From Myxococcota bacterium (lineage in GTDB: Bacteria > Myxococcota_A > Polyangia > HGW-17), in the NCBI GenBank assembly GCA_018821305.1, contig JAHJMN010000189.1:1-55114 (forward strand): a stretch of 55,114 bases of DNA, written 5' to 3'. How positions within the stretch are numbered: position 1 is the first letter of the stretch; each line of letters begins with the position of its first letter. The notes below the pieces were generated by a model that worked only from the letters and a program-made list of their open reading frames with translations, did not search any database and had not been told where the DNA came from. Positions 26,289 through 35,283 of the stretch are shown one piece after another. The position numbers and the translations under genes were made by a program.

Positions 26289-26306
26289 CTGTTAATTTTT
26301 TCACAG
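26289..26306 (+). promoter_or_regulatory. Candidate Rex operator at the transcription start
   Basis: ctgttaattttttcacag is an 18-base palindrome of the form TGT(T/G)AA-N4-TT(C)ACA, matching the known Rex consensus (TTGTGAA-N4-TTCACAA-like). Position right after the -10 would let bound Rex block initiation. This predicts autoregulation and relief when NADH/NAD+ is high. Confidence 0.7.
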
Positions 26307-26340
26307 CGTGAAATTAATAACAGCAAGATGGAGAACCCAA

Positions 26341-26979
26341 ATGAACGCGTCCCGCAAAACAATTGAAAGACTCAGCCATTACCGAATGGTTCTGTCCCGT
26401 CTTTCGGGGCAGGGAGTTCAGAATATTTACAGCCGTGAACTTGCTGCCCTTGCAGATTGCACTCCAGCCCAAGTGCGCCGGGATCTTATGGTCACTGGAT
26501 ATGAAGGAAATCCTAAACACGGTTATAATATTTCTGAACTTAAAAAATCCCTTGATGTGTTTTTTGATTTCAAAGGAAATCTTGTCGCAGTAATTGTCGG
26601 TGCAGGATCCCTTGGAAGAGCTCTCATCGCATACTTCATGCCTAAAAAAACAATGTACGACATTGTTGCAGCCTTTGATTCAGATATGAATAAAACCGGA
26701 AGACTTATCAATGGAACACCATGTTTCCACATCAATGAAATGGTGGAAAAACTTCATGATCTGAAACCAGATATTGCACTGGTTACTGTTCCCGCTGAGT
26801 CTGCGCAGGAAGTTGCTCTTAAACTTGTTAAGTCCGGAGTGTCAGGAATCCTCAACTTTGCACCAGTGAGGCTTAAAGTTCCAGAAAAAGTGTACGTTGA
26901 GAACATCGATGTAACCATGTCTCTTGAAAAAGTTGCCTTCTTCTCAAGGCAATACCGGGAGGAAAAAAATAATGGATAG
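26341..26979 (+). CDS. rex: Redox-sensing transcriptional repressor Rex
   Basis: A 212-residue repressor that senses NADH/NAD+. The N-terminal winged helix (RLSHYRMVLSRLSGQG, LAALADCTPAQVRRDLMVTG) precedes a Rossmann NAD-binding domain with VIVGAGSLGRALIAYF, the AAFDSD acidic end and a domain-swap C-terminal helix (VAFFSRQYREE). The ATG at 26341 follows GGAG by 9 bases and matches the usual length; an upstream in-frame GTG at 26308 would place coding sequence against the operator. The end overlaps hydC, showing rex leads the hydrogenase operon. Confidence 0.93.
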   Translation: MNASRKTIERLSHYRMVLSRLSGQGVQNIYSRELAALADCTPAQVRRDLMVTGYEGNPKHGYNISELKKSLDVFFDFKGNLVAVIVGAGSLGRALIAYFMPKKTMYDIVAAFDSDMNKTGRLINGTPCFHINEMVEKLHDLKPDIALVTVPAESAQEVALKLVKSGVSGILNFAPVRLKVPEKVYVENIDVTMSLEKVAFFSRQYREEKNNG

Positions 26980-27442
26980 TGAAATGACCCTTAATGAAAT
27001 ACTGAGTAATTTCAATGATAAAAGTCGTGATAATCTGATACCTATTTTACAAGAAGAACAACGCCATAGAGGATTTATTAGTCGAGAGGCCATAATCCAA
27101 ATTGGCACTGCACTAAATCTTCCCGTATCTAAAATCTACGGCGTAGCATCGTTTTATAACCAATTCCGGTTTAATGCTCCTGGTAAACATTATATTCAAA
27201 TTTGTCGCGGTACTGCATGCCATGTCAAAGGAAGCGCTCGCGTTCTGGATTCTCTTTTAACGGATATGTCGGTAAAAGCGGGTGAAACAACCAGAGATAA
27301 AATGTTCAGTATTGAAGTTGTCGCATGCGTTGGAGCCTGTAGCCTTGCACCGGTCATTGTTGTGGATAATGAATTTCACGCGAATGTGACTTCGGCGAAA
27401 ATGTCATCCATAGTCAGCAAACTGAGAAAGGAAGAAAAGTAA
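26972..27442 (+). CDS. hydC: HydC-type NuoE-like [2Fe-2S] subunit of NADH-linked hydrogenase
   Basis: A 156-residue thioredoxin-like [2Fe-2S] protein of the NuoE/HndA/HydC group. Ligand motifs are C-R-G-T-A-C (ICRGTACHVKG) and the second pair VACVGACSLAP. The N-terminal helical part (LQEEQRHRGFISREA, GVASFYNQF) is typical. It relays electrons within the hydrogenase complex. I place the start at the ATG at 26972, inside the last codons of rex, since GGGAGGA precedes it. The stop overlaps hydB (TAATG). Confidence 0.9.
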   Translation: MDSEMTLNEILSNFNDKSRDNLIPILQEEQRHRGFISREAIIQIGTALNLPVSKIYGVASFYNQFRFNAPGKHYIQICRGTACHVKGSARVLDSLLTDMSVKAGETTRDKMFSIEVVACVGACSLAPVIVVDNEFHANVTSAKMSSIVSKLRKEEK

Positions 27443-29433
27443 TGACCTCTCTTTTTGAAAAATGCTGTGAAAAGTGCTGGCACTCGGAATCAAAAAAATG
27501 TCCTGACTTCATTTCCTGTCTTACTTCAGGACCTTTATGTCACACAAATGATGCTTGCAAATCTCACCGGGATGGAAAAATAGCTTCCTCCATGCTCAAA
27601 AAAACCAGTGTGCCAGTTATTTATATGGGACTAGGAACATGTGGTCTGGGGGCTGGAGCAGGAAAAACTCTTGGCGCCCTGAAAGAATATTTAAAAGAAA
27701 ACAATATTGAAGCCATTATAAGAAATGTCGGTTGTATCGGGCTTTGTACCCTGGAGCCCCTGATGGATATTAAACTTCCGGGAAAAGCCAGGATTTCTTT
27801 TGGAAATGTTATGCCGAAGGATGTAGGTCCAATCATTAGCGGTGTAATGGAAGGAAATGTGCAACTGCCTGGTCTGGTAGGTCAACATATTTCTGACTCA
27901 GATGAAAAATGGGAGGGTGTATCTCTATTTTTCGATCATCCCTTTTTCCGTAAGCAGAAACGCTGGGTACTGCAGAACTGTGGAATGAATGATCCGGTGA
28001 ACATTGAGGAATATATAATAGGTGGGGGATTCAAAGCTCTCGAAAAAACTTTAAAAAGTATAACCAGAAAAGATCTATGCGATTCAATTGAAAAAAGCGG
28101 TTTAAGAGGTCGAGGGGGTGGAGGATTTCCCACGGGGACAAAATGGAAATTCGCTTTAAATACACCGTCTGATAAAAAATTTATGATCTGTAACGCCGAT
28201 GAAGGTGATCCCGGTGCCTTTATGGACAGGGCCCTTATTGAAGGTGATCCCTATAGATTGATTGAAGGACTTGCTATTGCCGCATACGGAATTGGCGCAA
28301 GTACAGCTTATGTTTACATAAGAGCAGAGTACCCCCTTGCAATTGAAAGACTGAAAGAATCCATCGCAAAATGCGAAGAACTTGGAATCCTTGGCGAGAA
28401 TGTTTTTGATAGTGGATTCTCATTGAAGATTAAAATCAAAATGGGCGCTGGGGCTTTCGTGTGTGGTGAAGAAACCGCCCTTATGCATTCAATTGAAGGC
28501 AAGCGAGGTATGCCTCGACCGAGACCTCCTTTCCCAGCCCAGAGTGGTCTTTTCGGAAAACCTTCCATTGTAAATAATGTTGAAACCCTGGCAAACCTGC
28601 CCTCTATCGTTTTAAATGGTCATGATTGGTTTGCTGCAACCGGTACAGCCTCCTCAAAAGGTACAAAAGTTTTTGCTTTGAGTGGAAACGTCAACCGCAC
28701 AGGTCTTGTGGAAGTTGAGATGGGCACAAAAATAAGTGAAATAATCAACGATATCGGCGGAGGTATTCCAGATGGCAAATCATTTAAAGCCGCCCAAATT
28801 GGAGGGCCTTCTGGTGGATGTATTCCCCCTCAGCACATGGATATTGAAGTTGACTACGAAAGCCTCAAAACCGTCGGCGCTATGATGGGAAGTGGCGGAC
28901 TTGTTATTATGGATGAAACAGCTTGTATGGTAGACGTTGCCAAGTTTTTCATGGATTTCATTCAGAGGGAAAGCTGTGGAAAATGTATCCCCTGTAGACA
29001 GGGAACCGCAAGAATGCTGGAAATTCTTGAGCTCATCACATCCCGACCTGAAAATACTGATTCCATGCGCGCATTAGAGAGATTTCAAGGAATTATTACA
29101 ATGGAACGCCTCGCTGCGGTAATTCAGGACACCTCTCTTTGCGGTTTAGGTCAAACTGCACCTAACCCGGTATTAAGCACACTCAAGTATTTCAGAGATG
29201 AATACGAAGCTCACATTTATGAGCGACGTTGCCCGTCTGGAGTGTGCAGGGATCTTCTTACTTTCACAATCATCGAAGACAAATGCACCGGTTGTACACT
29301 TTGCGCTCGCAAATGTCCCACACAGGCCATCAAGGGCGCAGTTAAAAGTCCACATTACATAATAACTGAAAAATGCATTCGATGCGGTGCCTGTGTAGAA
29401 AGCTGCCGCTTTAACGCAATTGAAGTCAAATAA
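27442..29433 (+). CDS. hydB: HydB-type NuoF-like FMN/NADH subunit of [FeFe] hydrogenase
   Basis: A 663-residue flavin subunit. Order: a Cys-rich start (about residues 8-35, CCEKCWHS ... CPDF ... CLTSGPLCH ... C); a [2Fe-2S] thioredoxin-like domain (GTCGLGAGAG, GCIGLCTLEP); the NuoF core with GRGGGGFPTGTKWKF and CNADEGDPGAFMDR for NADH/FMN; the [4Fe-4S] motif ESCGKCIPCRQG with distal Cys in SLCGLG; and two C-terminal [4Fe-4S] ferredoxin motifs (CTGCTLCARKC, CIRCGACVESC). It oxidises or reduces NAD(H) and is the likely bifurcation site. The N-terminal Cys cluster is not part of the minimal NuoF. It is 1-base coupled to hydC. Confidence 0.93.
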   Translation: MTSLFEKCCEKCWHSESKKCPDFISCLTSGPLCHTNDACKSHRDGKIASSMLKKTSVPVIYMGLGTCGLGAGAGKTLGALKEYLKENNIEAIIRNVGCIGLCTLEPLMDIKLPGKARISFGNVMPKDVGPIISGVMEGNVQLPGLVGQHISDSDEKWEGVSLFFDHPFFRKQKRWVLQNCGMNDPVNIEEYIIGGGFKALEKTLKSITRKDLCDSIEKSGLRGRGGGGFPTGTKWKFALNTPSDKKFMICNADEGDPGAFMDRALIEGDPYRLIEGLAIAAYGIGASTAYVYIRAEYPLAIERLKESIAKCEELGILGENVFDSGFSLKIKIKMGAGAFVCGEETALMHSIEGKRGMPRPRPPFPAQSGLFGKPSIVNNVETLANLPSIVLNGHDWFAATGTASSKGTKVFALSGNVNRTGLVEVEMGTKISEIINDIGGGIPDGKSFKAAQIGGPSGGCIPPQHMDIEVDYESLKTVGAMMGSGGLVIMDETACMVDVAKFFMDFIQRESCGKCIPCRQGTARMLEILELITSRPENTDSMRALERFQGIITMERLAAVIQDTSLCGLGQTAPNPVLSTLKYFRDEYEAHIYERRCPSGVCRDLLTFTIIEDKCTGCTLCARKCPTQAIKGAVKSPHYIITEKCIRCGACVESCRFNAIEVK

Positions 29434-29443
29434 GGGGTAACTC

Positions 29444-31162
29444 ATGATAGAACTGACTATAAACAACAAGAAAGTTACTGCTTCCGAAAATGAAATGCTT
29501 TTGAGCGTTATCCGGCGTGAAGGATTCCATGTACCTACTCTCTGTCATGTGGAAGGACTTACTCCTACCGGAGCATGCAGACTTTGTGTAGTTGAAATTG
29601 AGGGCATCCGTGGTCTTGTTCCAAGCTGTGCATATCCCGTAAGAAACGGCATGGTAGTCCAGACCCACTCCAACCGCCTTATTGAAGCCAGAAAGACAAT
29701 AATTGAACTTCTTTTAGGAACCCATCCTGATGATTGTCTGTATTGCACCAGAAGAGATACATGTGAACTTCTTGGACTTGCAGAGGAACTGGGAGTCAGA
29801 GAAAGACGTTATAAAAAACAACCTCAAATTCCCAAAATTGATGTTTCCAGTCCAGCCCTTATGAGAGACCCGGCTAAATGCATCCTTTGCGGACGTTGCG
29901 TAAGAGTGTGCGAAGAAATTCAGGGTGTTGGAGCAATTGATTTTATAGGGCGAGGTTCAAATTGCGTTGTTGGAACTGCCTTCAACGAAGGATTGAACAT
30001 CTCAAGTTGCGTAAACTGCGGACAATGCATAACCGCATGTCCCACAGGAGCTTTGGTTGAACAAAAGCATATAAAAAGAGTTCTCCAAGCCTTAAATGAT
30101 CCCTCAAAAACAGTAACTGTGCAACATGCACCAGCAGTAAGTGTTACATTAGGCGAAATGTTTAACCTTCCATCCGGCACCGATGTTCAGGGTATAATGA
30201 TTTCCGCTCTGCGCGAAATTGGTTTTGACCAGGTATTTGACACGAGTTTCAGCGCCGATCTTACAATTATGGAAGAAGCTTCAGAGCTTGTCCATCGAAT
30301 ACAAAATAGTGGGAAATTGCCCATGATGACCAGTTGTTCTCCCGCCTGGGTAAAATTTGTGGAGACCTTTTATCCTCAGTTCCTGCCTAACCTTTCCACA
30401 TGTAAAAGTCCCATGCAGATGTTGGGAGCAGTCACAAAGACTTGGTGGGCTCAAAAAAATAACATCCCGCGTGAAAACATCTACAATGTAGCGGTTATGC
30501 CTTGCACGGCTAAAAAATTTGAAGCAACACGGCCTGAAATGGGAGATCTGACACCAGATATCGATGCTGTTCTCACCACAAGAGAACTCTATGAGTTGAT
30601 CCGAATGAAAGGAATCCGCATGACAGAGCTGGTTCCGCAGTTTAACGATAATCCATTCGGTCAGCGCTCTACAGCCGGAAAACTCTTCGGTGCAACTGGT
30701 GGAGTAATGGAAGCCGCCGTGCGCACCGCATACTGGTTAATTACTGGAAAAAATCTAGAAACACCGGTAATTCCCGAAGTCCGTGATCTGGCTGGTGTAA
30801 AAGAAGCTCATATTGAAATAGATGGATTAAAAATTGGGGTTGCCGTTGCGAGCGGACTTGCCAATGCACGGAAGATTCTTGATGACATAGCTCTGGGTCG
30901 CAGTGATATTCAGTTTGTTGAAATAATGAGCTGCCCTGGAGGCTGTATAGGTGGTGGTGGTCAACCTTATGGGACGGATCTTGATGCTGTACGTTCCCGA
31001 ATGCAGTCTCTCTATAAAATAGATCGTGACGAAACAGTGCGGTTCAGTCATGAAAATGAAAGTATCAAAAATCTTTATACCGAATTCCTTGGTAAACCCC
31101 TGGGACATGAGAGTCACAGACTTTTACATACAGATTATTACAAACGGACAGTGATGAAGTAG
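29444..31162 (+). CDS. hydA: [FeFe] hydrogenase catalytic subunit HydA (group A, NADH-linked type)
   Basis: A 572-residue enzyme. The N-terminus holds a plant-type [2Fe-2S] site (CHVEGLTPTGACRLC and a distal Cys), a His-Cys [4Fe-4S] motif (HPDDCLYC ... C), and two ferredoxin clusters (CILCGRCVRVC, CVNCGQCITAC). The H-cluster domain has L1 TSCSPAW, L2 MPCTAKKFEA and L3 SCPGGCIGGGGQP, all intact. It interconverts protons and H2, with electrons passed to HydC and HydB; trimers of this kind couple NADH and ferredoxin. Its TAG stop lies in a repeat fragment (TAGTTCGTGTCCTG). HydE, HydF and HydG maturases are not in the window. Confidence 0.95.
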   Translation: MIELTINNKKVTASENEMLLSVIRREGFHVPTLCHVEGLTPTGACRLCVVEIEGIRGLVPSCAYPVRNGMVVQTHSNRLIEARKTIIELLLGTHPDDCLYCTRRDTCELLGLAEELGVRERRYKKQPQIPKIDVSSPALMRDPAKCILCGRCVRVCEEIQGVGAIDFIGRGSNCVVGTAFNEGLNISSCVNCGQCITACPTGALVEQKHIKRVLQALNDPSKTVTVQHAPAVSVTLGEMFNLPSGTDVQGIMISALREIGFDQVFDTSFSADLTIMEEASELVHRIQNSGKLPMMTSCSPAWVKFVETFYPQFLPNLSTCKSPMQMLGAVTKTWWAQKNNIPRENIYNVAVMPCTAKKFEATRPEMGDLTPDIDAVLTTRELYELIRMKGIRMTELVPQFNDNPFGQRSTAGKLFGATGGVMEAAVRTAYWLITGKNLETPVIPEVRDLAGVKEAHIEIDGLKIGVAVASGLANARKILDDIALGRSDIQFVEIMSCPGGCIGGGGQPYGTDLDAVRSRMQSLYKIDRDETVRFSHENESIKNLYTEFLGKPLGHESHRLLHTDYYKRTVMK

Positions 31163-31199: not shown

Positions 31200-31230
31200 T
31201 ATTTACTATGTGCTACCTGGAGTTATTGAT

Positions 31231-33234
31231 ATGGATAAAAATCGCCTTCAATTGGTTCGGACAATCAAGGATAAATGTAAAACCTGTTACACTTGCGTCC
31301 GTAACTGCCCCGCAAAGGCAATCCGCATTTATGACGGACAGGCTGAAGTAATAACCGATCGCTGTATCGGATGCGGAAATTGCGTCCGAGTATGTACTCA
31401 AAACGCAAAGGAAGTTGTTGACTGCACCTCAACAGCACTGCACCTGCTGGGCTCAACAAAATACCGCACAGTTGCCCTTGTTGCTCCAAGTTTTCCTGCC
31501 GAATTTCATAATATTGACTACAAAACATTTGTTGGAATGCTTCGAAAACTTGGATTTTCCCTTGTAGTGGAAGTTGCGTTCGGAGCCGATATCATCGGGG
31601 AGAAATACCATGAGCTTTATGAGCGCCACCCGGAAAAAAGCTTCATTGAAGCCTCATGTCCAGCAGTTGTATCTTACATCGAAAAATATTATCCACATTT
31701 GACCGAAAATCTTGGACCTCTTGTTTCCCCGATGATAGCAATGTCTAAAATAATTGACCGGGTTTATGGTAGCGATCTTAAAAAAGTATTCATTGGTCCG
31801 TGTATTGCGAAAAAAGGTGAAGCAACGTGTGATCCGGAAACTGGAATTCACTGCAGCATTATGTTCCGCGAACTCCGGGAACTTTTTAAAATGAAAAATG
31901 TAACTCCGGAAAATGTTGAACCATCTGATTTTGATCCTCCCCTTGGCGGAATGGGGCGGGTTTATGCTCTAAGCCATGGATTTTTCCAGACTGCTGGTAT
32001 TTCTGAAAACCTGCTGGCTGGAGACGTAGCAAGCGCAGATGGGCAGACAAACTTCGTTGAAGCGATCAGAGAATTTGATCAGGGAAATCTCAACGTGCGC
32101 CTTCTTGAAATGCTGTGTTGTCAGGGTTGTATTATGGGTGCCGGTTTCACAGCGACAAATCCGCGCTTTTTCCGTCAGGCTAAGGTAAGTGATTATGCGA
32201 GAATGCGTCGCAACTCGTTGAATCGTGAAGAATGGAAAAAATACGTAGAAATCGTTTCCGACTTGGATTATTCACGATCATTTGAAAATGACGATCAGAG
32301 AATCAACAGCCCCACATCCGATCAGGTAATGACGATAATGCATCAGATGGGAAAGCAACTTCCCGAGGATGAACTGAACTGCGGTGCTTGCGGATACGAG
32401 ACATGCATTGAACATGCAAAAGCAATCCACAAAGGACTTGCAGAAAAGGAAATGTGTCTTCCTTACATCATTGACAGGCTGAAAAACACAGTTACAGAGC
32501 TGGAACACAGCCATGATGAATTAGCAAATACGCAAAAAGCACTCATGCACTCCGAACGACTCGCCTCCATGGGGCAATTAGCTGCGGGAATTGCGCATGA
32601 AGTTAACAACCCTCTGGGAGTAATCTTACTTTACTCAAATATTTTACTTGAGAAAGCCAACGAGGCTAATCCTAATGTTGAAGAACTCAGGATGATTGTT
32701 GAACAGACGGAAAGATGTAAACGAATTGTCAGCGGACTTCTAAATTTCGCACGACAGAATAAGGTAGCACGACAACCTGTTGATTTCCCTAAACTCTGTA
32801 GAAGAATCATTGAATCGCTGCATATTCCAGACAAAATAGAAACTGAAGTCAAATTGATTTGTACAGATCCGGTAGTTGAGGTTGATACCGACCAGATGGC
32901 ACAAGTTATAACAAACCTTGCAACAAACTCCGTTGATGCCATGCCCGACGGGGGCAAACTTTCAGTAACGATGGATGGAACAGAGCATAGTGTTACTATC
33001 ATTTTTCGTGATACAGGAAGTGGTATTCCTTCAGAAAATATGGCAAAGATCTTTACACCATTTTTTACTACAAAAAAAATTGGCAAAGGTACAGGACTTG
33101 GTCTTCCGGTAACTTACGGAATAATTAAGATGCACATGGGCCAGATAAACGTTGAAAGCAACACAGATCCTGAAAAAGGGCCCACAGGAACAGCTTTCAG
33201 AATCTCTATTCCACGAGCGGAAGGTGAAAAATAA
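31231..33234 (+). CDS. Iron-sulphur / H-cluster-like sensor histidine kinase
   Basis: A 667-residue soluble sensor. Order: two ferredoxin-type [4Fe-4S] motifs (Cys16-Cys26 and Cys45-Cys55), an Fe-hydrogenase large-subunit-like domain (about 80-345), a RnfB-like [4Fe-4S] motif (Cys384, 387, 392, 409 in NCGACGYETC ... C), a coiled segment, HisKA with phospho-acceptor His456 (AAGIAHEVNNP) and an HATPase domain (N, G1 DTGSGIP, G2 GKGTGLGLP). The hydrogenase motifs are degraded: ASCPAV instead of HydA's TSCSPAW, IGPCIAKK, and LCCQGC instead of CPGGC. It probably senses redox state or H2 and does not turn over H2. ATG 31231 follows GGAG by 8 bases. Confidence 0.9.
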   Translation: MDKNRLQLVRTIKDKCKTCYTCVRNCPAKAIRIYDGQAEVITDRCIGCGNCVRVCTQNAKEVVDCTSTALHLLGSTKYRTVALVAPSFPAEFHNIDYKTFVGMLRKLGFSLVVEVAFGADIIGEKYHELYERHPEKSFIEASCPAVVSYIEKYYPHLTENLGPLVSPMIAMSKIIDRVYGSDLKKVFIGPCIAKKGEATCDPETGIHCSIMFRELRELFKMKNVTPENVEPSDFDPPLGGMGRVYALSHGFFQTAGISENLLAGDVASADGQTNFVEAIREFDQGNLNVRLLEMLCCQGCIMGAGFTATNPRFFRQAKVSDYARMRRNSLNREEWKKYVEIVSDLDYSRSFENDDQRINSPTSDQVMTIMHQMGKQLPEDELNCGACGYETCIEHAKAIHKGLAEKEMCLPYIIDRLKNTVTELEHSHDELANTQKALMHSERLASMGQLAAGIAHEVNNPLGVILLYSNILLEKANEANPNVEELRMIVEQTERCKRIVSGLLNFARQNKVARQPVDFPKLCRRIIESLHIPDKIETEVKLICTDPVVEVDTDQMAQVITNLATNSVDAMPDGGKLSVTMDGTEHSVTIIFRDTGSGIPSENMAKIFTPFFTTKKIGKGTGLGLPVTYGIIKMHMGQINVESNTDPEKGPTGTAFRISIPRAEGEK

Positions 33235-33257: not shown

Positions 33258-33656
33258 ATGAATTATAATGAAATGAAAGTACTTCTGGTGGATGATGATC
33301 CTGATTTCATCGAACAGCAGAAAGCCCTGCTGAACGCCATCGGCTTTCAGGTAGTTTGTGCCTCTGGTGAAACCGAAGCCGCAAGAATTCTTAATACATT
33401 TAAACCGGATCTTGCAGTTTTAGACTTGATGATGGAAAAAATGGATGGTGGTTTTGTACTGGCTTATCAAATTAAAAAAATGTACCCTGAAACACCAATT
33501 ATCATGACTACTGCCGTTACGAATATTACAGGAATGGAATTCGACGCCACAACAAAAGAAGAAAGATCATGGATAAAGGCGGATGTAATTTTGCCAAAAC
33601 CAGTTCGCTTTGAACAATTAAAGGGCGAAATTAACCGTTTATTTTCCAGGAGTTAA
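33258..33656 (+). CDS. Stand-alone receiver-domain response regulator
   Basis: A 132-residue receiver without output domain: acidic pocket VDDDP, phospho-acceptor Asp56 (AVLDLMM), switch Thr (MTTAV) and Lys (LPKPV). The insert before the Lys (GMEFDATTKEERSWIKAD) is longer than usual. AAGGAG lies 7 bases before the start. Position directly after the sensor kinase makes it the likely phospho-acceptor in a relay. Confidence 0.9.
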   Translation: MNYNEMKVLLVDDDPDFIEQQKALLNAIGFQVVCASGETEAARILNTFKPDLAVLDLMMEKMDGGFVLAYQIKKMYPETPIIMTTAVTNITGMEFDATTKEERSWIKADVILPKPVRFEQLKGEINRLFSRS

Positions 33657-33658
33657 TT

Positions 33659-34804
33659 ATGGACACTACTCATGATAAGCTCAAAGTTTACGTTGTAGAT
33701 GATGAACCAGGAATTTGTCTTGGAATCGGAGCAATACTGAGGGATTTCACTTTTAAGGACAAAGCATCCCTTACCCCTGTGGAGTTTGAGATTTTCATGT
33801 ATAACGATGGTGAAAGTATGCTTTCATCACTGGAAACTTCCGTACCTGATATTCTGCTTTTAGATTGTAAACTTCCAGGAATAAGCGGCCTTGAAATGCT
33901 CGAAGGTCCCCTGGGTGGACGTACTGATATTCTGACTATAATGATTACGGCATATGCGACCATTGAGACCGCTATTCGTGCGACAAAACTCGGAGCTTAT
34001 GATTTTCTTGCAAAACCATTTACTCCCGATGAACTTCGTTACACCATCAGAAAAGCAGTAACCCACATAATGCTCACCCGACAGGCAAGAAAGCTTGAAG
34101 AAGAAAAACGTAAAATACGCTTTGAATTCATTAGTATACTTGCTCATGAACTCAAAAGTCCCATTAATGCTGTGGATGGTTATCTGGACCTGATGCAGAA
34201 TAGAATTCTCGGTGACGACCTTTCTTCTTATATTGATATTATTAAAAAAAGCAGTGACCGCATTGACGGCATGCGAAAAATGATTGGAGATCTTCTGGAT
34301 CTGACCCGGATTGAATCTGGTCAGAAAAAACGTGTAGTTGAAGAAACAGATTTGATTGATCTTGTGAAGAATTCAGTTGAATCCAATACTCTGGCTGCCC
34401 AAAGTCGAAACATCAGTTTTGATCTCGAAATACCAGAAAAGCTTATTATTCCTGCAGATACTGGTGAAATGCAGATTATTCTAAACAACCTTGTGTCAAA
34501 CGCTGTTAAATATAATCGGGATTCTGGTAGAGTCAAAATTTGTATTGCGTGGGATGAGAGTGATAAATTATTGATTTCCGTACAAGATACAGGTATCGGT
34601 ATGACTGCTGAAGAATCGGCACGACTTTTCAACGAATTTACTCGAATAAAAAATGCAAAAACTCGCTTGATTCCCGGAAGTGGTCTGGGACTCTCAATTG
34701 TTAAGAAAATCGCGATGTTATATGGAGGAGATGTAAGTTGCGAGAGTGAACCGGATCGTGGTAGTACATTCCGGGTAAAACTAGATGTTGTTAAAGTACA
34801 ATAA
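33659..34804 (+). CDS. Receiver-histidine kinase hybrid
   Basis: A 381-residue protein with a receiver first (Asp69 in LLLDCKLPG, switch Thr in MITAYA, Lys119 in LAKPF), a coiled linker and then HisKA (His163, LAHELKSP) and HATPase (NNLVSNAVKYN, DTGIGM, GSGLGLSIV). This order suggests that phosphorylation of the receiver controls the kinase, so a signal arriving from the upstream sensor could be passed on. CAGGAG precedes the start; only 2 bases separate it from the previous gene. Confidence 0.9.
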   Translation: MDTTHDKLKVYVVDDEPGICLGIGAILRDFTFKDKASLTPVEFEIFMYNDGESMLSSLETSVPDILLLDCKLPGISGLEMLEGPLGGRTDILTIMITAYATIETAIRATKLGAYDFLAKPFTPDELRYTIRKAVTHIMLTRQARKLEEEKRKIRFEFISILAHELKSPINAVDGYLDLMQNRILGDDLSSYIDIIKKSSDRIDGMRKMIGDLLDLTRIESGQKKRVVEETDLIDLVKNSVESNTLAAQSRNISFDLEIPEKLIIPADTGEMQIILNNLVSNAVKYNRDSGRVKICIAWDESDKLLISVQDTGIGMTAEESARLFNEFTRIKNAKTRLIPGSGLGLSIVKKIAMLYGGDVSCESEPDRGSTFRVKLDVVKVQ

Positions 34805-34822: not shown

Positions 34823-34854
34823 TTAACTGTGATACAGTGAAAGGAGCAAATCAA

Positions 34855-35283
34855 ATGGCAAAAAAAATTATCTGCATCGACGATGACCAGGATGTAATCG
34901 ATTTCCTCAGCATCACCCTTGGAGCAAAAGGTTATGAACTTGAAACGGCTTCTGATGGAGAAGAAGGCTACAATAAGGCATGCAGTTTCAAGCCTGACAT
35001 GATCGTTCTGGATGTCATGATGTCCCACAGCACGGAAGGCTTCCATACTGCCTACAAATTCCGTCAGAATGAAGATCTGAAATATGTTCCTATACTGATG
35101 CTCACAAGTATCAATCAGGAATTTAACTACAACTTTTCAATGGAAAAAGATGGGGAGTTCCTCCCTGTGGATGATTTTGTAGAAAAACCAATTTCCAGCC
35201 AGCTTCTTCTTGAAAAAACTGCAAAACTTCTTGAAACTCCAAAAGATCAAATCAACATATCCGGCAAGAAAAAAGTTATCTAA
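34855..35283 (+). CDS. Single-domain response regulator
   Basis: A 142-residue receiver with acidic pair CIDDDQ, phospho-acceptor Asp53 (IVLDVMM), Thr in MLTSI and Lys in VEKPI. The ATG at 34855 lies 8 bases after AAGGAG; an ATG at 34837 is less well placed. There is no DNA-binding output, so it should act by protein contact or as a phosphate sink. It ends the hydrogenase signalling run and its TAA is followed by a reversed repeat copy. Confidence 0.88.
   Translation: MAKKIICIDDDQDVIDFLSITLGAKGYELETASDGEEGYNKACSFKPDMIVLDVMMSHSTEGFHTAYKFRQNEDLKYVPILMLTSINQEFNYNFSMEKDGEFLPVDDFVEKPISSQLLLEKTAKLLETPKDQINISGKKKVI

Follow-up and report, generated by a model that had tools for sequence, protein, structure and literature searches.

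Immediately downstream of a bifurcating-type hydrogenase operon, the stretch of Myxococcota DNA analysed here (55,114 nucleotides, contig JAHJMN010000189.1; "the window") carries a gene, T, whose product joins an iron hydrogenase domain (H-domain) to a histidine kinase. A preliminary description, made from the letters alone, called this domain degraded and proposed that it may hold either a lone cubane cluster, acting as a redox switch, or a modified H-cluster that senses H2. The locus thus raises the question of what the H-domain binds, and what the attached kinase reports and to whom. How sensory [FeFe]-hydrogenases relay the H2 signal is itself an open question (PMC11376134, PMC13104023). 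Our analysis identifies T as a histidine kinase with a sensor-type iron hydrogenase domain as its input half. Judging from the sequence, it adjoins the hydrogenase that it probably regulates.

Architecture and distribution of T

The frame is open from 31231 to 33231, with a GTG at 31210 as an alternative start, and the protein contains L1 as FIEASCPAVV, L2 as FIGPCIAKK and L3 as LEMLCCQGCIMG. The motifs quoted in the preliminary description (L1 ASCPAV, L2 PCIAK, L3 CCQGC) are read in this frame exactly as given, and its domain order, an H-domain with two ferredoxin clusters, an RnfB-like FeS domain and a kinase, is borne out by the Pfam matches (Table 1). The FeS domain PF04060 occurs in RnfB too. 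Since 80 named loci encode homologues with the same layout, the arrangement is not a product of chance. T shows the hallmark of sensory HydS, namely two N-terminal [4Fe-4S] sites combined with a C-terminal Cx2Cx4Cx16C motif. The PAS domain of group C HydS gave no Pfam match between residues 411 and 447. In the kinase half, whose nearest types are the ZraS/AtoS kinases, H456 is invariant among T homologues, as are D594, G596, G620, G622 and G624, and N562 and N566 are conserved at 90% or more.

The AlphaFold2 model of T, built with 66 sequences, has a mean pLDDT of 86 and about 95 in the H-domain; a helix extends to residue 431 and is followed by a low-confidence stretch before the kinase. Its best Foldseek matches are [FeFe]-hydrogenases (apo DdH, TM 0.68 by target, rmsd 3.3 Å), and the kinase model matches ZraS.

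Our homologue set comprises the 80 named loci, with 66 full-length sequences used for conservation. By their titles, the short-loop homologues at these loci span more than 15 phylum labels, including Myxococcota, Planctomycetota, Bacteroidota, Hydrogenedentota, Lentisphaerota, Acidobacteriota, Ignavibacteriota, Actinomycetota, Elusimicrobiota, WOR-3, KSB1 and others. Nearly all sources are metagenome-assembled; the nearest named relative, from a Myxococcota MAG, shares 67-70% identity with T.

Table 1. Positions of T, its motifs and domains, and the neighbouring features in the window
Feature	Position	Strand	Remark
Rex-operator-like site TGTTAATTTTTTCACA	26290..26305	+	directly before rex
Rex-type redox repressor	26308..26979	+	
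HydC/BfuC (NuoE-type)	26924..27442	+	
HydB/BfuB	27442..29433	+	
HydA/BfuA, catalytic subunit of bifurcating-type hydrogenase	29444..31162	+	NCBIfam group A6
T gene (BfuT/HydS-type sensor histidine kinase), 667 aa	31231..33234	+	stop ends at 33234
Two [4Fe-4S] ferredoxin sites, C16/C19/C22/C26 and C45/C48/C51/C55	31276..31395	+	Pfam Fer4 pairs; invariant in 66 homologues
H-domain Fe_hyd_lg_C, residues 80-304	31468..32142	+	Pfam, E 3e-44
L1 motif ASCPA, residues 141-145	31651..31665	+	CpI C299 to Ser142
L2 motif PCIAKK, residues 190-195	31798..31815	+	M353 to Gly189; Lys194 = CpI K358, kept
L3 motif LCCQGC, residues 295-300	32113..32130	+	family-invariant C297-x2-C300
C-terminal FeS domain PF04060, residues 382-411, C384-x2-C387-x4-C392-x16-C409	32374..32463	+	Pfam
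Linker, residues 412-446	32464..32568	+	partly helical, partly low-confidence in model
Histidine kinase: HisKA 447-509, HATPase_c 552-663	32569..33219	+	Pfam, both over cut-offs
Stand-alone receiver domain	33258..33656	+	phospho-acceptor Asp in 56/56 rows
REC-HisKA-HATPase (receiver-controlled kinase)	33659..34804	+	Asp in 61/61, His in 60/61 rows
Second stand-alone receiver	34837..35283	+	in close relatives L034, L035, L111; elsewhere less often

T belongs to a conserved hydrogenase cassette

The genes in the window run in the order rex, hydC, hydB, hydA, T, REC, REC-kinase, REC. Counted over the 80 loci, with only those that have enough flank, HydA lies directly upstream of T in 61 of 71, and HydB and HydC are present in 46/50 and 45/50, respectively. 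The REC-kinase is found in 60 of 61 loci, a stand-alone REC in 55 and both in 54, and Rex in 27 of 40. The order hydC-hydB-hydA-T-REC-[REC-kinase] is a conserved cassette, often with rex. The phospho-acceptor Asp, the Lys and the His are conserved in the partner proteins of T. The cassette differs at four loci (L043, L052, L061, L081), where HydB has 1100 aa and the receiver gene separates HydA from T.

Rex is the only DNA-binding protein found in the cassette. The exact 16-bp palindrome form of its putative site, TGTKAANNNNTTMACA, matched once in the window, at 26290-26305; the relaxed consensus TTGTGN8CACAA matched the window no more often than chance. A sigma-54 scan, prompted by the likeness of the kinase to AtoS/ZraS, gave chance-level matches and none before the operon, and sigma-70 and terminator scans gave background levels only.

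Two features of the upstream subunits are recorded here. The operon HydA (29444-31162) reads TSCSPAW, with Ser at the position of the CpI cubane ligand C300. HydA1 of A. woodii (7q4v) likewise has Ser there, and PMC11406978 calls this common in BfuA. The N-terminus of HydB (27442-29433) corresponds to the NCBIfam 'CCxxC NuoF prefix' domain.

The H-domain keeps its cluster site and has lost the proton path

CpI numbering was set from PDB alignments, and residues were compared in an alignment of 63 H-domains. The H-cluster cysteines of T are C143, C191, C297 and C300, which correspond to CpI C300, C355, C499 and C503, and L2 retains P354, C355, K358 and K359. L1 might be taken for a loop that has lost a cluster ligand. 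This is ruled out because the Cys of ASCP aligns with the cubane ligand C300 and the Ser sits at the proton-relay position C299. Across T proteins, the C299 position is occupied by Asp, Ser, Thr or Ala; the Asp form is found in 29 of 80, mainly in Bacteroidota loci (L055-L107). In prototypical enzymes, no C299 substitution other than Asp is reported to preserve activity (PMC10055695). In addition, M353 is replaced by Gly in 80/80 named loci, a count to which the search seed FIGPC itself contributes in part. Leu at the M497 position is invariant in the family, and the proton-path residues E279, E282, R286 and S319 are replaced or missing.

The published signature of HydS is alteration of C299, M353 and M497 with the cluster cysteines kept (PMC10055695, PMC8163306). 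T has lost these three residues and the proton path, as have the characterised sensory HydS, and it has kept the cysteines. The motifs of catalytic HydA, TSCxPxW, MPCxxKK and MxCPGGC, are replaced in T by EASCPAV, GPCIAKK and LCCQGC, and the TIGR02512 score of 104.6 bits falls below the NCBIfam group A cut-off of 406 bits. The four cysteines are (nearly) invariant across the 66 homologues, and A230, P231, S232, S323, P324 and K358, which line the [2Fe] site in HydA, are conserved at 97-100%. Among the 391 non-Cys columns, only 62 are conserved at 95% or more, and the hypergeometric p for this pocket is 1.3e-5. Family searches placed HydF, HydG and HydE in the same genome, over curated cut-offs and together on one contig, C210. 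The HydEFG-bearing stretch of this contig also contains a 1068-aa kinase-like ORF (L161:1177-4380).

TmHydS and TamHydS lack the same residues as T; both incorporate the [2Fe] subcluster and show slow H2 turnover (PMC8163306, PMC10055695). Because the cysteines and pocket are kept, the losses are HydS-like and HydE/F/G are encoded in the genome, the word degraded does not suit this domain. More distant Fe_hyd_lg_C/FeS proteins (L015, L016, L150, L151, L165) diverge in L2 around K358 (PCPVEM in L016); one of their genes, from Parabacteroides (L165), lies with genes for DRTGG, PHP and ATP-binding domains.

A shortened L3 loop

In HydA, three residues part the cubane ligand C499 from the bridging C503; in the T family, only two part C297 from C300. 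The x2 spacing occurs in 79 of the 80 named loci, and x3 in one (L062, CKGGC). A plain substitution of CPGGC is ruled out, since all homologues but this one read C-x-G-C, and the loop is therefore one residue shorter. The spacing was not built in by the homologue search because the seeds, FIGPC[IV]AK and CVR[ENS]CPAKA, do not include L3. T also has a Cys at 296, x3 from C300. Cys is found at this position in 52/80 named loci, the others having Ala, Phe, Ser or Leu, and in only 62% of homologues; the family-invariant pair is C297-x2-C300.

The x3 spacing is present in the HydS-type proteins of R. albus, Acetoanaerobium and Monoglobus, in the PAS-type T proteins L154, L155 and L156, in the hybrid-kinase and SpoIIE-type HydS L147, L148 and L149, and in all HydA examined. 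C-x3-C is thus kept in HydA and in nearly all other HydS types sampled. On a tree built without the L3 columns, the x2 spacing arises once and is reverted once, two changes in all, across the full range of bootstrap support. Two Bacteroidales T proteins (L152, L157) lack the kinase half, lie inside the clade and have the x2 loop; the short loop is therefore a trait of the clade and is not tied to the kinase. Our literature search, outside which lay most subscription journals and supplements, found no description of the shortened L3 loop or of the REC and REC-kinase partners, and the passages of PMC11406978 that we consulted mention neither. The one-residue shortening is apparently an undescribed feature of the widespread T family.

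What the H-domain may hold

In our assessment, T is somewhat more likely than not a cytoplasmic BfuT-type kinase that senses H2/redox state, keeps an H-cluster in a shortened loop and feeds a phosphorelay. As a sensor it is supported but unproven. The cubane-only switch of the preliminary description, in which the H-domain would carry [4Fe-4S] without [2Fe] and the kinase would read ferredoxin or redox potential rather than H2, now looks unlikely. The [2Fe]-pocket residues (K358, S232, P231, S323 and others) match the cysteines in conservation, whereas a domain with only a cubane would have no need of such a pocket, and the pocket statistics given above argue against it. All 39 of 39 genomes checked encode further Fe_hyd_lg_C proteins, and the homologue L062 has reverted to CKGGC. 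A cubane-only domain would, however, agree with the family-wide shortening of L3 from cubane ligand to bridging cysteine, and a redox input could come from the ferredoxin domain by itself. The invariant Leu at M497 also counts against an H-cluster, as this exchange hampered [2Fe] insertion in CpI and left it without a properly integrated 2Fe cluster (PMC10055695); TamHydS has Leu at M497 yet matures (PMC8163306).

The other earlier option, a modified H-cluster, survives because the L3 loop is shortened family-wide; it is the "degraded" part of that proposal that finds no support. In its sharper form, the cluster would have a genuinely different coordination that alters its potential and ligand response. 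The closer spacing of C297 and C300, by one residue, could change how the cubane or the bridging thiolate is held; alternatively, C296 could replace C297 in CC members. The invariance of C297-x2-C300 beside a variable C296, and the single origin of the short loop, favour such a cluster, but a one-residue change may be absorbed by the loop without altering the cluster, and we hold a different coordination to be possible, if somewhat doubtful. That T is an active catalytic hydrogenase with a kinase tail would be in keeping with the complete H-cluster site and ferredoxin clusters. This is very unlikely, given the replaced or missing proton path (C299, E279, E282, R286, S319) and the dedicated HydA encoded just upstream. 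Slighter still is the prospect of a relic domain without metal-dependent input, attached to a kinase that is constitutive or driven by partner binding. The loss of C299 alone could suggest such decay, but none of the twelve accessory-cluster cysteines or the four of the H-domain varies among 66 sequences that are 42-70% identical to T.

A possible signalling route

According to the H-cluster sensor reading that we prefer, the H-domain would keep a complete H-cluster site in a loop one residue shorter, and would be adapted to slow turnover with a persistent reduced state, not to catalysis. H2, or electrons of the hydrogenase pool arriving via the ferredoxin domain, would change the state of the H-domain, and this change would reach His456 of the kinase by way of the C-terminal FeS domain and the linker. 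Adjacency suggests that the stand-alone receiver encoded next to T, the receiver domain of the adjacent REC-kinase, or both, would then accept the phosphoryl group. The REC-kinase would serve as a second, receiver-controlled kinase in a two-step phosphorelay. Such kinases are a known type (LvrB, PMC13269768). The T system may adjust the adjacent bifurcating hydrogenase in this way, with Rex separately coupling this operon to NADH. We infer [2Fe] occupancy, H2 as the ligand, the order of phosphotransfer and the output, H2 sensing by T being proposed by analogy. Exposure of TamHydS to H2 leaves its C-terminal cluster oxidised while its secondary structure changes (PMC13104023). Because that cluster is unresponsive to H2, the signal of T is more likely conformational than an electron chain, and a simple electron chain from the H-domain to the kinase seems doubtful.

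T combines the sensor and a complete kinase in one predicted soluble protein, and a receiver and a second kinase are encoded alongside. The signal question could therefore be approached by a direct assay of the effect of H2 on autophosphorylation; to our knowledge, no member of the clade has been purified. In addition, the natural L3 and L1 variants (CC versus AC; Asp, Ser, Thr or Ala at 299; one CKGGC revertant) form a set for studying H-cluster tuning. More tentatively, we propose that a bacterial clade in more than 15 phyla, kinase-fused, with an H-cluster or a variant of it in a short C-x2-C loop and without the canonical proton path, might drive an H2-sensing two-kinase phosphorelay from a distinct H-cluster form.

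Comparison with known systems

Like T, the group C protein TmHydS of Thermotoga maritima has two N-terminal clusters and a C-terminal FeS domain, lacks C299 and has Gly for M353; it differs in carrying a PAS domain, where the FeS domain of T is joined to the kinase by a linker, and in having Ser instead of Leu at the M497 position (PMC10055695). The group D protein TamHydS of Thermoanaerobacter mathranii shares with T the C-terminal Cx2Cx4Cx16C cluster, Leu at M497, the absence of C299 and the adjoining bifurcating hydrogenase, whereas M353 is Ser, not Gly, and no kinase is fused (PMC8163306, PMC13104023). As the group C yardstick we used the HydS-type protein of Ruminococcus albus (plasmid pRUMAL01), which is 34% identical to the N-terminal half of T over 97% of that half. 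Unlike T, it has CNGSC (C-x3-C) as L3, and its output is a separate, adjoining SpoIIE-family phosphatase. Other combinations exist in single chains of more than 1000 aa: L147 unites a sensory hydrogenase with PAS and a SpoIIE phosphatase, and in L148 (and, by eye, L149) a sensory hydrogenase is fused to a PAS-kinase-receiver hybrid. For the gene at 33659, the LvrB-type kinases offer a comparison of architecture only: the REC-HisKA-HATPase layout is the same, but the organism and the signal are different (PMC13269768).

The closest system is BfuT, described in PMC11406978 as an extra 'group C3' sensory [FeFe]-hydrogenase adjoining BfuABC; of its two forms, one carries a histidine kinase. In HydDB, however, C1 stands for a link to a histidine kinase and C3 for a link to a phosphatase (PMC5037454), which makes the C3 label awkward for T. 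BfuT sub-type V (Hydrogenedentota, HydDB group C3) has the same C-B-A-T order, a kinase domain and adjacency to the bifurcating hydrogenase, and nothing essential separates it from T. T lies directly downstream of bfuA, carries its kinase after the hydrogenase domain and is homologous to the exemplar T protein. The exemplar genome, CSSed162cmA_463 (G068, locus L170), has HydC-HydB-HydA-T-REC-REC-kinase-REC, and its T protein has a CxGC loop, reading LACEGC. Since the exemplar genome of PMC11406978 thus has the same cassette and the same type of T protein, the T gene of the window is BfuT, an already named kind.
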